From Verrucomicrobiales bacterium (GTDB lineage: Bacteria > Verrucomicrobiota > Verrucomicrobiia > Limisphaerales > UBA9464), in contig JAIYBC010000061.1 of the NCBI GenBank assembly GCA_027488845.1, forward strand, positions 1 to 48,100: 48,100 bases of DNA, written 5' to 3'. This document shows positions 10,152 through 45,957 of the stretch, piece after piece (positions within the stretch are counted from its first letter, which is position 1; each line of letters starts with the position of its first letter). Both the position numbers and the translations under genes were made by a program. The notes below the pieces were generated by a model. It was not told the origin of the DNA. It searched no databases and saw only the letters and a program-made list of their open reading frames with translations.

Positions 10152-10195
10152 CGGGGCCGAGAGGTGGCGATTTAGGGGAATTCGCGGCGGCTTGC

Positions 10196-10230
10196 TGGGA
10201 ATCGGGAATCGGGAATCGAGAATCACGAAT
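10196..10230 (+). repeat. Heptamer array, word CGGGAAT (5 units)
   Basis: TGGGAAT, CGGGAAT, CGGGAAT, CGAGAAT, CACGAAT, then CCC. The reverse complement of this word family occurs at 40651-40685. Confidence 0.88.
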
Positions 10231-10295
10231 CCCATGCGGCTTTGCGTTTTCGCGTGAGGTCGTTTCCTTGGGATATCGCCTTGTTCGTCGGGATT

Positions 10296-21156: not shown

Positions 21157-21172
21157 GTGGGGGATGGGATGA

Positions 21173-21305
21173 GGGGTTGAAAGGTTGAAGCGTTGAAAGG
21201 TTGAAGCGACGCATGACGCCCGCCTCCCGCCCTTTAACCCTTTAACCCTTTAACCCTTTAACCCTTTAACCCTTTAACCCTTTAACCCTTCAACGCTTCA
21301 ACCCC
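21173..21305. repeat. 8-mer arrays with an inverted arm (GGTTGA and TTTAACCC words)
   Basis: Four 8-mers of the type NNGGTTGA (21173-21204) are followed by seven exact copies of TTTAACCC (21233-21288) and then TTCAACGCTTCAACCCC (21289-21305). That last segment is the inverted complement of the first words, so the region can fold on itself. It lies between convergent genes, and no gene is present. Confidence 0.9.
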
Positions 21306-21314
21306 TTCCCACCC

Positions 21315-25869: not shown

Positions 25870-25873
25870 GATT

Positions 25874-25901
25874 CTGTCAGTTGTCAGTTGTCAGTTGTCA
25901 G
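25874..25901 (+). repeat. Heptamer array, word TTGTCAG (4 units)
   Basis: CTGTCAG then three TTGTCAG. The same word occurs 1.5 to 2 times at 4725-4740. Its last base is the first base of the next palindrome. Confidence 0.88.
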
Positions 25902-25943
25902 ACGCGTGACCTCGTCTCCTGCGGTGCGGGTAGGACTCTCATC
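25901..25943 (+). repeat. Dispersed palindromic element
   Basis: Left arm GACGCGTGACCTCGTCTCCT and a shortened right arm GTAGGACTCTCATC. Same family as 4978, 31507 and 31614. It lies 7 bases from the end of the convergent gene. Confidence 0.75.
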
Positions 25944-40685: not shown

Positions 40686-40690
40686 CACGA

Positions 40691-40802
40691 CGCCTGACGC
40701 CCGACACCTGACGCCTGACGCCTGACGCCTGACGCCCGACGCCCGACGCCCGACGCCCGACGCCCGACGCCCGACGCCTGACGCCTGACGCCCGACGCCC
40801 GA
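40691..40802 (+). repeat. Sixteen-unit heptamer array, word CGCCYGA
   Basis: Sixteen uninterrupted 7-mers, ten of them CGCCCGA or a close variant and the rest CGCCTGA, with one CACCTGA (40705-40711). It fills the space between the convergent pheA and GspE-like genes. Confidence 0.95.
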
Positions 40803-40809
40803 CACCCCT

Positions 40810-42793: not shown

Positions 42794-44293
42794 TCAGTAG
42801 CGGTAGTGTTCCGGCTTGTAGGGGCCGTCGGGCGAGACACCGAGGTACTCGGCCTGGGGCTTGGTCAGCTTGGTCAGGACCACGCCGATCTTCTCGAGGT
42901 GCAGACGGGCGACCTCCTCGTCGAGCTTCTTGGGCAGGCGGTAGACGGTCTTCTCGTACTTGTCCTTGTTCTGCCAGAGGTCGATCTGGGCGAGCGTCTG
43001 GTTGGTGAACGAGTTGGACATGACGAACGACGGATGGCCGGTGGCGCAGCCGAGGTTCACCAGGCGGCCCTCGGCCAGCAGGTAGATGCTCTTGTTTCCG
43101 GGCAGGTGGTAGCGGTCGTACTGGGGCTTGATGTTCTCGATCTTCACGCCCTTCGTCGCCTTCAGCTTGTCCACCTGGATCTCGTTGTCGAAGTGGCCGA
43201 TGTTACAGACGATCGCCTGGTCCTTCATCTTGAGGACGTGGTCCACGGTGATGATGTCGCAGTTGCCGGTGGTGGTGACGTAGATGTCGCCGGTGCCGAG
43301 GGTGCTCTCGATGGTGTTGACCTCGAAGCCTTCCATCGCGGCCTGGAGGGCGTTGATGGGGTCGATCTCGGTGACCACGACGCGGGCGCCGTAGGCGCGC
43401 AGCGAGTGGGCGGAGCCCTTGCCGACGTCGCCGTAGCCGCAGACGACGGCGACCTTGCCGGCGATCATGACGTCGGTGGCACGCTTCAGGCCGTCGGCCA
43501 GCGACTCGCGGCAACCGTAGAGGTTGTCGAACTTCGACTTGGTGACGGAGTCGTTCACGTTGATCGCGGGAACGAGCAGCTTGCCCTGTTCGGCGAACTT
43601 GTAGAGGCGGTGGACGCCGGTGGTGGTCTCCTCGGAGACGCCGCGCCAGGCCTTGACGATCTTGGTCCAGATGCCGGGCTTCTCCTTGGCGACGCGCTTG
43701 AGCAGGTTCTTGATGACCTGCTCCTCGTGCGAGCCGCTCTTGGAGTCGACCCACGTGTCACCCTTCTCGAGCTCATAGCCCTTGTGGATGAGCAGGGTGA
43801 CGTCGCCGCCGTCGTCGACGACGAGTTCCGGTCCCTGGTCGCCGGGGAAGAGGACCGCCTTGAGGGTCAGTTCCCAGTATTCCTCGAGCGTCTCGCCCTT
43901 CCAGGCGAACACGGGGGTGCCGGTGGCCGCGATGGCCGAGGCGGCGTGGTCCTGGGTGGAGAAGATGTTGCAAGAGGCCCAGCGCACGGAGGCGCCGAGG
44001 TCGACGAGCGTCTCGATGAGGACCGCGGTCTGGATCGTCATGTGGAGCGATCCGGTGATGCGGACGCCCTTGAGGGGCTTCTGCTTGGCGTACTTCTTAC
44101 GGACCGACATCAGGCCGGGCATTTCATGCTCGGCGACGGCGATCTCCTTGCGACCCCACTCGGCGAGGGCGATGTCGCGGACGATGTAGTCCTTTCCGGA
44201 CGGGGTGTTGGCCGCGAACGCGGCGAGGTTGGGGAGGGCGGCGGCGACGTCGGCGAGGGCGGCGCTGGCAGCTGCTTTCTTAGATTTGGCCAT
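42794..44293 (-). CDS. ahcY: Adenosylhomocysteinase
   Basis: NAD-dependent enzyme that splits S-adenosylhomocysteine into adenosine and homocysteine, relieving product inhibition of methyltransferases. The 499-residue product has the substrate region [16 protein letters not shown], the [13 protein letters not shown] block, the catalytic lysine/aspartate segment [17 protein letters not shown], the NAD motif [17 protein letters not shown] and the normal C-terminus KPEHYRY. It carries the roughly 40-residue insert of many bacterial forms, which explains its length. It lies downstream of metK in the same direction, separated by a four-helix-bundle gene, and ends at a strong terminator. Confidence 0.97.
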
Positions 44294-44300
44294 GGTGCTT

Positions 44301-44331
44301 CAGTTTCAAGTGTTCAGTTTCAAGTGTTCAG
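44301..44331. repeat. Tandem 14-mer (2 x 7) at the 3' end of the four-helix-bundle gene
   Basis: CAGTTTCAAGTGTT occurs twice, then CAG. AGTTTCAAGTGTTCAG is present twice and, inverted, once at 44751-44766. The stop codon of the four-helix-bundle gene (44320-44322) lies inside it. Confidence 0.9.
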
Positions 44332-44697
44332 AACGGACTTCCCTGACCGCGAGGCCAGGGAGCGAATCAATCCCTGCAGCATTGCCGAGATTTCCTTCAG
44401 TTCGGCGATGTAGCGTTCGGATTCGGCTTTGGTGAGGATTTCCAATTTCAGTGCGATGTAGACCTGGGTCCGAAGCTCGGCTGCGGAACCCTTGGCGATG
44501 CGAAGAAACCGGATGAAGTCGGGGCGGCTGTCACGCTCGCAGCCTTCTGAGATGTTCGACGGGATCGAGACAGCGGATCGTTGGATCTGGTCCCGAAGTC
44601 CGAAATTGTTCGAACCGGACACCGCCCGGCAGATCTCCACCGCCAAGCGGCAGGATCTTTTCCAGACCTCCAGTTCCTCGAACGATTGATACCCCAT
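44320..44697 (-). CDS. Four-helix-bundle protein (S23/Avd-like)
   Basis: A 125-residue all-helical protein of the four-helix-bundle family first seen as the ORF inside 23S rRNA intervening sequences and related to the Avd subunit of diversity-generating retroelements. The family signature is clear: FEELEVWKRSCRLAVEICR, GLRDQIQRSAVSIPSNISEGCERDS, FIRFLRIAKGSAAELRTQV. It has no catalytic residues and is thought to bind nucleic acid, but its role is unknown. It is inserted between metK and ahcY. It is preceded by a long hairpin and its last codons are made from the flanking repeat, so it looks like a small cassette. The start at 44697 is preferred, as upstream codons fall in the hairpin. Confidence 0.88.
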   Translation of the reverse strand: MGYQSFEELEVWKRSCRLAVEICRAVSGSNNFGLRDQIQRSAVSIPSNISEGCERDSRPDFIRFLRIAKGSAAELRTQVYIALKLEILTKAESERYIAELKEISAMLQGLIRSLASRSGKSVLNT

Positions 44698-44718
44698 CGT
44701 GCGAAGGGCCTTGGCTCC

Positions 44719-44760
44719 AAGTGTCCAGTGCCAGGGGGCATCCCTGAACACTGAACACTT
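44719..44760 (-). other. Long hairpin upstream of the four-helix-bundle gene
   Basis: On the minus strand AAGTGTTCAGTG pairs with CACTGGACACTT (12 bp, one G-T pair), and inside it CAGGG pairs with CCCTG. It ends 21 bases before ATG 44697. It resembles the subterminal hairpins of small mobile elements. Confidence 0.75.
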
Positions 44761-44771
44761 GAAACTTCAAA
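44744..44771. repeat. Heptamer array, 5' flank of the four-helix-bundle gene
   Basis: CTGAACA, CTGAACA, CTTGAAA, CTTCAAA. Bases 44751-44766 are the inverted complement of the repeat at 44302-44331. It lies 4 bases from the metK stop. Confidence 0.88.
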
Positions 44772-44775
44772 CTCC

Positions 44776-45957
44776 TTACTTAACCGCCTTCTGGAGGGCC
44801 TTGACCTTGTCCGTGGCTTCCCAGGTGAGGTCCTTGTCGTCCTTGCCGAAGTGGCCGTAGTTGGTGGTCTTGGAGTAGATCGGGCGCAGGAGCTTGAGCT
44901 GGCTGACGATGTCGGCCGGCTTGAAGCTGAACACGCTCTCCACGGCCTCGGTGATCGCGCCGTCGGTCAGGCCGCCCTTGGCGGTGCCGAAGGTGTTGAC
45001 GTACACGCTGACGGGCTCGGGGTAGCCGATGGCGTAGGCGAACTGGATCTCGGCGCGGGACGCGAGTCCGGCGGCGACGATGTTCTTGGCCACGTAGCGG
45101 CCCATGTAGGCGGCCGAGCGGTCGACCTTGGACGGGTCCTTGCCGGAGAAGGCGCCGCCGCCGTGGCGGCCGTACCCGCCGTAGCTGTCGACGATGATCT
45201 TGCGGCCGGTCAGACCGGTGTCGCCCTGGGGCCCGCCCACCACGAAGCGGCCGGTCGGGTTGATCAGGAACAGGGTGTCCTTGGTGAGCAGCTCCTTCGG
45301 GAGGACCTTCTTGATGACCTCCTCGACGCAGAACTCCTCGATGGTCGAATGGTCGACATCGGCGGCATGCTGGGTGGAGATGACGACGTTGGAGATGGCG
45401 ACCGGCTTGTCGTTCTCGTACACGACGGAGACCTGCGACTTGGCGTCGGGACGCAGCCAAGGCGCGAGCTTACCGGCCTTGCGGATCTGGGTGAGCTTAC
45501 GTCCGAGGCGATGCGCGAACATGATCGGGGCCGGCATCAGCTCCGGGGTCTCGTCGCTGGCGTAGCCGAACATCAGGCCCTGGTCGCCGGCGCCCTGCTC
45601 GGCCTTCTTCTTGCCCTTGGCCGCCTTGGCGTCGACGCCCTGGGCGATGTCGGGCGACTGCTGCGTGACGTACACGTTCACCATCACCTTGTCGGCGTGG
45701 AAGACGTCGTCGTCGTTCACGTAGCCGATCTCGCGGATCGCCTCACGCGCCAGCTTCACGTAGTCGAGCTTGGCCTTGGTGGTGATCTCACCGCCGACGA
45801 CGGCGATGTTGGACTTCACATAGGTCTCGCACGCGACGCGGCTGTACTTGTCCTGCGCCAGGCAGGCGTCCAATACGGCGTCGGAGATGGTGTCGGCGAC
45901 CTTGTCCGGATGACCCTCGCCGACGGACTCGGACGAGAAGATGAAGCGGTTGCTCAT
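44776..45957 (-). CDS. metK: S-adenosylmethionine synthetase
   Basis: Makes S-adenosylmethionine from ATP and methionine. The 393-residue length is standard. Family motifs are intact: [21 protein letters not shown] (N-terminal ATP/methionine loop), [12 protein letters not shown], the flexible region near [10 protein letters not shown], and the phosphate loop [19 protein letters not shown]. With ahcY downstream it forms the methyl-cycle pair. A lysine-rich insert ([13 protein letters not shown]) is present before GAGDQG. No SAM riboswitch could be recognised upstream; only the short palindrome ACGTA-TT-TACGT is seen. Confidence 0.97.

Follow-up and report, generated by a model that had tools for sequence, protein, structure and literature searches.

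A candidate repeat-armed cassette with a single four-helix-bundle gene between metK and ahcY in a Verrucomicrobiales genome

The window analysed here, a stretch of 48,100 nucleotides, belongs to a Verrucomicrobiales genome (G000) of 5.39 Mb that is 95% complete. Near its end metK (44776-45957) and ahcY (42794-44293) flank a small gene at 44320-44697; all three are minus-strand genes, and their order is metK, small gene, ahcY. The open reading frame at 44320-44751(-) matched the four helix bundle family 23S_rRNA_IVP (PF05635) with an E value of 1.4e-34 and 118.9 bits, against a curated cut-off of 33.8, and the TIGR02436 profile with a score of 121.3 against a cut-off of 24; the four-helix-bundle identity proposed in a first-pass annotation of this DNA is thus borne out. 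The longest reading starts at the GTG at 44751, an alternative to the ATG at 44697 (MGYQSFEELEVW...), which is the start common to most of the aligned relatives. PF05635 was the sole Pfam match of this gene, the only one in the insert, and no nuclease, transposase or reverse transcriptase domain was found in it. The closest solved structures were 2gsc (XCC0516) and 2rld, each with five chains. Proteins like these probably form pentamers. Two other candidate identities were rejected: a riboswitch at metK/ahcY had no Rfam match (tRNA alone was over threshold in the window, and GRIK4_3p_UTR, below its gathering score, was taken as chance), and for a defence gene PADLOC yielded only HEC-06, at an E value of 0.012.

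The gene is bracketed by short repeats. Exact copies of AGTTTCAAGTGTTCAG were found at 44302-44317(+), 44316-44331(+) and 44751-44766(-), in other words two on the ahcY side and one on the metK side, inverted around the gene as the first-pass annotation had described, and with up to three mismatches allowed there were four matches in the window compared to 0.07 expected. The annotation had treated AGTTTCAAGTGTTCAG as a particular 16-mer, and on this point it has to be revised, the repeat instead being a degenerate 7-bp tandem array (AGTTTCA AGTGTTC ... / ACTGAAC ACTTGAA ...). The 3' arm downstream of the gene (44302-44331) is made up of two overlapping copies on the plus strand and has the stop codon (44320-44322) inside it; the 5' arm (44744-44773) is a period-7 array, ACTGAAC ACTGAAC ACTTGAA ACTTCAA ACT, within which the exact inverted copy lies. 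The downstream repeat encodes GTT CTG AAC ACT TGA, so that the last residues (VLNT) and the stop codon are indeed written in repeat sequence. The leader between the metK stop and the gene start (44698-44775, minus strand) is predicted to form a hairpin of heptads that encloses a GC-rich core, with a folding energy of -41 kcal/mol (z -5.2) that was equalled by none of 200 shuffles. A nested hairpin of 12 bp plus 5 bp had been noticed just before the start, and both of its parts are inside this stem, which extends further outward. When the entire insert was folded as one RNA, it closed into one long stem (MFE -192, z -2.9, none of 100 shuffles as good). The whole-insert stem and the leader hairpin are mutually alternative folds.

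Eight matches to PF05635 were found in the G000 genome, seven of them over the cut-off. Five of the other loci (L007-L011) were each bracketed by inverted arrays with letters of their own: GGCGTCA at L007, GGTTGAAG at L008, GTTGTCA at L009, TTAACCTTAATCC at L010 and GATTCCC at L011. Arms were scored by aligning the 250 bp upstream of a gene to the reverse complement of the 250 bp downstream, with a score of at least 14 counted as a pass. L007 scored 21, L008 41 and L010 17, and both L009 and L011 scored 13, under the cut-off; the weak matches L012 and L013 were left out of arm scoring. The earlier suggestion that the repeat is part of the unit is supported, and other four-helix genes of the genome share the armed design. 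The expectation that other copies would carry the same hairpin and repeat held for the design alone, each copy having repeats of its own. A unique mobile repeat AGTTTCAAGTGTTCAG was therefore ruled out, because other loci of the same genome carry other letters.

Arrays without a gene are also present in the window. By eye, the GGGAATC array at 10194-10233 and the GTTGTCA array at 25871-25906 are the same repeats as the arms of L011 and L009, respectively, and an octad array of GGTTGAAN ... inverted AACCCTTT at 21162-21310 is related to the arms of L008. The array at 40689-40809 contains about 17 GACGCCY heptads, is matched by the L007 arms, and adjoins a GGGATTC-type array; several further solo arrays are found in the window. 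In G000, gene-free arrays are more numerous than gene-bearing arrays.

To place these arrays, stretches of 32 genomes from the taxonomic family of the window were searched outside gene loci, with runs of N excluded and a genome called positive if it had a four-helix match over the cut-off. Thirty-one solo period-7 arrays were found in 759 kb from 20 gene-positive genomes, compared to one in 524 kb from 12 negative genomes (Mann-Whitney p 0.013, uncorrected for phylogeny or assembly quality, with seven of the 31 arrays from G000). At the control periods 5, 10 and 11 there were six arrays in the gene-positive sample and eight in the gene-negative sample. The sampled pieces of ten of the 20 positive genomes had no period-7 array, and there were two arrays in 100 kb of G014 and one in 52 kb of G007. 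Queries of whole genomes gave a similar distribution. Locus L008 as a query had 39 matches in G000, 34 in G007, 26 in G012, 27 in G014, and zero to three in each of the 15 other congeners; locus L007 had 42 in G000, 16 in G014, eight in G007, and one or two elsewhere, G012 included. For L009, arm matches among those listed were only in G000, G007, G012 and G014. G002 and G017 each contain one weak family member over the cut-off, and there were no arm matches in them among the matches listed for the L007-L009 queries. In this sample, uncorrected for phylogeny, solo arrays were nearly confined to genomes that carry the gene family.

The armed design is not limited to these relatives. In a public sample of 80 four-helix loci from genomes of many phyla, three of which were dropped for short flanks, inverted arms passed in 51 of the 77 scored loci, compared to 15% of cross-locus pairs, 15 of 77 loci in direct orientation, and two of 137 mechanically called control ORFs from the same loci, one of which looks like a GxxExxY gene by sequence. 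Loci beside metK (14 of 23) and loci elsewhere (37 of 54) both passed at rates reached in none of 5000 permutations each. Within the taxonomic family of the window, 36 of 52 selected loci passed at 14 and 47 at a score of 12, the 52 being a selection from 94 over-cut-off matches that omits eight metK-site copies, matches at contig ends and many weaker ones. On viral contigs 22 of 33 loci passed, several of them near-duplicates, compared to 3.4% of cross pairs, and of eight cyanobacterial plasmid loci, taken from 22 records, six passed by score and the remaining two were armed by eye. About a third of loci were below the arm-score cut-off. The best period of the 160 flanks of the 80 public loci was 7 in 72, 14 in 15, 8 in nine and 15 in seven, compared to a best period of 7 in 11 of 230 control pieces; the spread was wider among the 104 family flanks (7 in 34, 6 in 14, 8 in 11). 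The design thus recurs across phyla, with repeat letters that are specific to the locus and arms that are matched within it.

This matching was clearest at a single site. Arm letters at metK-ahcY differed among 25 genomes (25 of 26 rows, L066 being dropped for an empty right arm), and the left and right arms of the same genome had a mean score of 17.3 compared to 12.0 for arms from different genomes, which was reached in none of 20000 permutations. The two arms of a locus therefore change together, through either selection for pairing or homogenisation at the DNA level. The possibility that arms track the protein rather than metK was not relied on, the association being weak (partial 0.23, p 0.048; 24 rows, L076 omitted).

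Spacers compared at the same site in different genomes were of four kinds: without an insert, with the cassette, with a diverged copy of it, or with the arms left alone. Among 13 metK-ahcY junctions in the genus, the cassette was present in G000 (482 bp) and G014 (485 bp), and the gene was missing from the other 11, including G007 (108 bp), nine congeners (38-42 bp) and G017 (73 bp). These are the empty sites that the first-pass annotation had proposed to look for. Its suggestion of an insertion between metK and ahcY is favoured by the short gene-free spacers of congeners and weakened by the presence of the gene there in other taxa. G000, G007 and G014 cluster together in the tree; seven empty congeners stand next to them, and two further empty genomes, G030 and G017, are close by. 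Family-wide, the gene was found in eight of 35 readable junctions (G000, G014, G023, G024, G040, G042, G045 and G047), the last six belonging to other genera, and a heptad hairpin without the gene was seen by eye in G025 and G026. Gain in the line of G000 and G014 is the preferred explanation; repeated loss in the congeners is possible because other genera hold filled sites.

Three other sites gave a similar picture. Between cysH and cysD a cassette is present in G000 and G014, where its repeat lies in the cysH frame and supplies the stop codon, and the spacer is 41-73 bp in ten congeners. In G007 the site holds, in place of the cassette, a GxxExxY gene (L381) between inverted repeats of its own. 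A third site was read in seven of the eight genomes of genus g3: it was filled in G024 and G026, 21-24 bp long in G023, G028 and G029, and occupied by arms without a gene in G025 (281 bp) and G027 (176 bp), with what appear by eye to be the last codons of a lost gene in G025. The L007 site is filled in G000 (659 bp), has arm stubs in G014 (131 bp), and is 99 bp in G007 and 179 bp in both G002 and G017. No target duplication was evident in the spacers compared by eye, and no movement, junction or circle was seen.

The metK site is not peculiar to G000. In the public set of 80 loci, the gene is next to metK in 24, and 23 of those have ahcY on the other side; since this is so, and since other genera also have the gene there, the site is a recurrent home and not a one-off. 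Genes from metK sites clustered in the four-helix tree (five changes, compared to 23 in shuffles), and four-helix and metK distances were correlated (0.37, p 0.003), so that much of this metK-site group looks inherited. The metK tree supported a family clade (97/95) that the four-helix tree, in which there are long branches, rejected (AU p 0.018). Our reading is that the site has been partly inherited and partly re-entered horizontally.

Genes at fixed sites may also turn over. At metK-ahcY the four-helix genes of G000 and G014 are 82.1% identical, compared to 97.3 and 98.0% for the flanks, with a dS of 0.92 compared to 0.10 for metK. Three more same-site pairs showed the same excess (83.7% for the gene and 98.5/98.1% for the flanks; 77.2 and 92.9/94.3%; 78.3 and 90.1/90.6%); of the eight pairs in all, three had no excess divergence and that of L256/L268 was small. 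These copies may have been exchanged or re-inserted, and a locally raised mutation rate is also possible. dN/dS was 0.03-0.21 in the eight pairs, and the four-helix protein is therefore under selection.

The system most similar to this cassette is the intervening sequence (IVS) of 23S rRNA. In Coxiella it is 428 nt long, its S23p ORF is enclosed by a terminal stem of 28 bp, and RNase III cuts it in vitro (PMC4990558). In the IVSs of Coxiella and Leptospira, as in the window cassette, complementary termini form a stem whose loop holds an ORF of this protein family, and there is no transposase. Unlike them, the window cassette is between metK and ahcY, outside any 23S rRNA gene, and armed cassettes generally occupy the spacers of protein genes, in one orientation or the other, and have heptad arms, several copies per genome, solo arrays and a putative RNase III excision. 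In REPIN/RAYT systems, dispersed inverted pairs of short repeats accompany one protein family, and RAYTs are Y1 (HUH) transposases. Armed cassettes likewise pair short inverted repeats at dispersed loci with one protein family, and their solo arrays may also be restricted to gene-bearing genomes, having been nearly so in a small sample uncorrected for phylogeny; in contrast, the four-helix protein has no Y1 (HUH) domain match and the arms are tandem arrays with letters that vary by locus. Insertion sequences and MITEs have fixed terminal inverted repeats and target-site duplications; here the arms are inverted, the letters differ by locus, and no target duplication was evident where spacers were compared by eye.

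Intergenic 7-bp arrays have been described before. They include GGGAATC in Xanthomonas, a heptamer that also occurs in the window, and GGGGAYT in Nostoc, and inverted heptamer pairs number 70 in one xanthomonad and 75 in another (PMC4692102); in Beggiatoaceae the heptamer TAACTGA forms intergenic arrays (PMC4679880). Neither 'four helix' nor 'S23' occurs in the main texts of PMC4692102 and PMC4679880, and a limited search of titles and the starts of abstracts found no paper tying four-helix genes to heptamer repeats. Two four helix bundle proteins are among the strain-specific genes of PMC8700078 and one is in phage-like regions beside guanylate kinase in PMC5524665; the passages concerned give no tie to flanking repeats.

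The feature is judged, with somewhat better than even confidence, to be a repeat-armed cassette in which one PF05635 gene, flanked by inverted arrays of short units (mostly 7 bp), is lodged in an intergenic spacer. It is best read as a spacer-dwelling relative of the 23S rRNA IVS with repeat arms of its own, and the recurrence of this design in many bacteria suggests that a type of small mobile DNA unit has been overlooked. The four-helix protein would be the partner of the arms and would bind their repeated units in single-stranded form, either DNA or RNA. A transcript across the insert could fold into one stem-loop and be cut out by RNase III, as in the 23S rRNA IVS, and since the complementarity of the arms holds for both strands, whatever transcript crosses the insert could fold it, so that insertion into an operon may be tolerated in either orientation. 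A mobile element without its own transposase had been proposed for this locus: neither a transposase nor a reverse transcriptase was found in the unit, and mobility is inferred from presence and absence at sites and from divergence at fixed sites. As neither a nuclease nor a transposase or reverse transcriptase is encoded in the unit, its spread would presumably depend on the host, by replication or by recombination through the arms, and some or most of the solo arrays may be ORF-less derivatives of cassettes. A wider reading, which we regard as possible but well short of probable, is a two-tier mobile system without a catalytic protein, in which four-helix oligomers recognise single-stranded DNA or RNA arrays with a 7-nt step and, by way of host enzymes, cause both cassettes and solo arrays to be copied, matched and spread.

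Rather doubtful is the rival explanation that the heptad arrays are independent simple repeats, generated by slippage and template switching, and that the genes are passengers arriving by homologous transfer into insert-tolerant spacers. It would account for the excess of gene-free over gene-bearing arrays in G000, and it gains from the GxxExxY (PF13366) genes, of which 30 loci (L363-L392) were sampled, 29 tried and 28 found to have enough flank. Eighteen of these 28 passed the inverted arm score of at least 14, and one is in the cysH-cysD spacer that holds a four-helix cassette in relatives. Sixteen of the 28 also passed in direct orientation, however, compared to 15 of 77 four-helix loci, and their flanks have other units: eight of 56 passed, at periods of 8-10 and none at 7, with longer units such as ACACAGATG seen by eye, whereas four-helix arms are mostly of period 7. 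The GxxExxY loci may be a sister cassette type. The near absence of arrays from sampled genomes without the gene also argues against simple repeats with passengers, as does the finding that, at a shared site, arms paired better within a species than between species (none of 20000 permutations).

It is unlikely that the hairpin and gene are instead an old regulatory module of the metK-ahcY operon that tunes its expression and was lost from congeners. The strong hairpin ahead of the gene and the purifying selection on it would fit such a module, as would the recurrence beside metK in the public and family sets (24 of 80 loci, 23 with ahcY, and eight of 35 junctions, six in other genera). Against it, the gene is missing from 11 of the 13 congeneric junctions and from the near outgroups G030 and G017, the family clade kept by metK is rejected by the four-helix tree, the same design occurs antisense and in unrelated gene pairs, and no Rfam riboswitch was found at the site. 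Very improbable is a role as the Avd protein of a diversity-generating retroelement (DGR), serving a reverse transcriptase elsewhere in the genome. There is a weak match to PHROG 3206, 'Avd protein of DGR' (E 0.0013), a distant four-helix relative, and 21 of 50 family genomes have reverse transcriptases, but PF00078 had no matches in any of the eight g3 genomes, which hold up to eight four-helix genes, or in G000 at 95% completeness, and a retroelement was rejected for G000.

PF05635 genes are widespread and unexplained, and the heptamer repeats reported from bacteria have had no cause assigned to them. If the two are cognate, both would be explained, and rRNA intervening sequences would become part of a general class of elements that live in spacers. 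If the two-tier system is real, it would have left the heptamer repeats of Xanthomonas, Nostoc and Beggiatoaceae as footprints; rRNA intervening sequences would be a special case of where it lands, and GxxExxY cassettes with other repeat lengths a sister system. Arm letters that vary between species and yet match within a locus offer a natural experiment in co-evolution.

Some of the metK-site contigs have unexpected taxonomic labels. Contig CAMASJ010000118.1 (L059), equal in length (12,542) to G014:C118, is labelled Akkermansia muciniphila, and its MetK and AhcY are 98-99% identical to those of the window; the species label is doubtful. L066 and L071 are on contigs labelled Proteobacteria with a MetK 91% identical to that of the window; the AhcY of L066 is only 73% identical, with a four-helix gene between metK and ahcY, which may reflect transfer or mis-binning.

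The cyanobacterial plasmid cassettes were found in both orientations. In sense, they have cas6 and cas4 as neighbours, or parB and an AAA ATPase gene; antisense, they are between two toxin-secretion genes and between two ribonucleotide reductase genes. The cas6-cas4 cassettes (L297 and L298, from Pseudanabaena and Anabaena plasmids) are in a CRISPR operon, with a type I-D Cas1 annotated in L298. In the Nostoc edaphicum plasmid (L295), a GGGAGTA-armed cassette at 1501-1869 is antisense between both ribonucleotide reductase genes.
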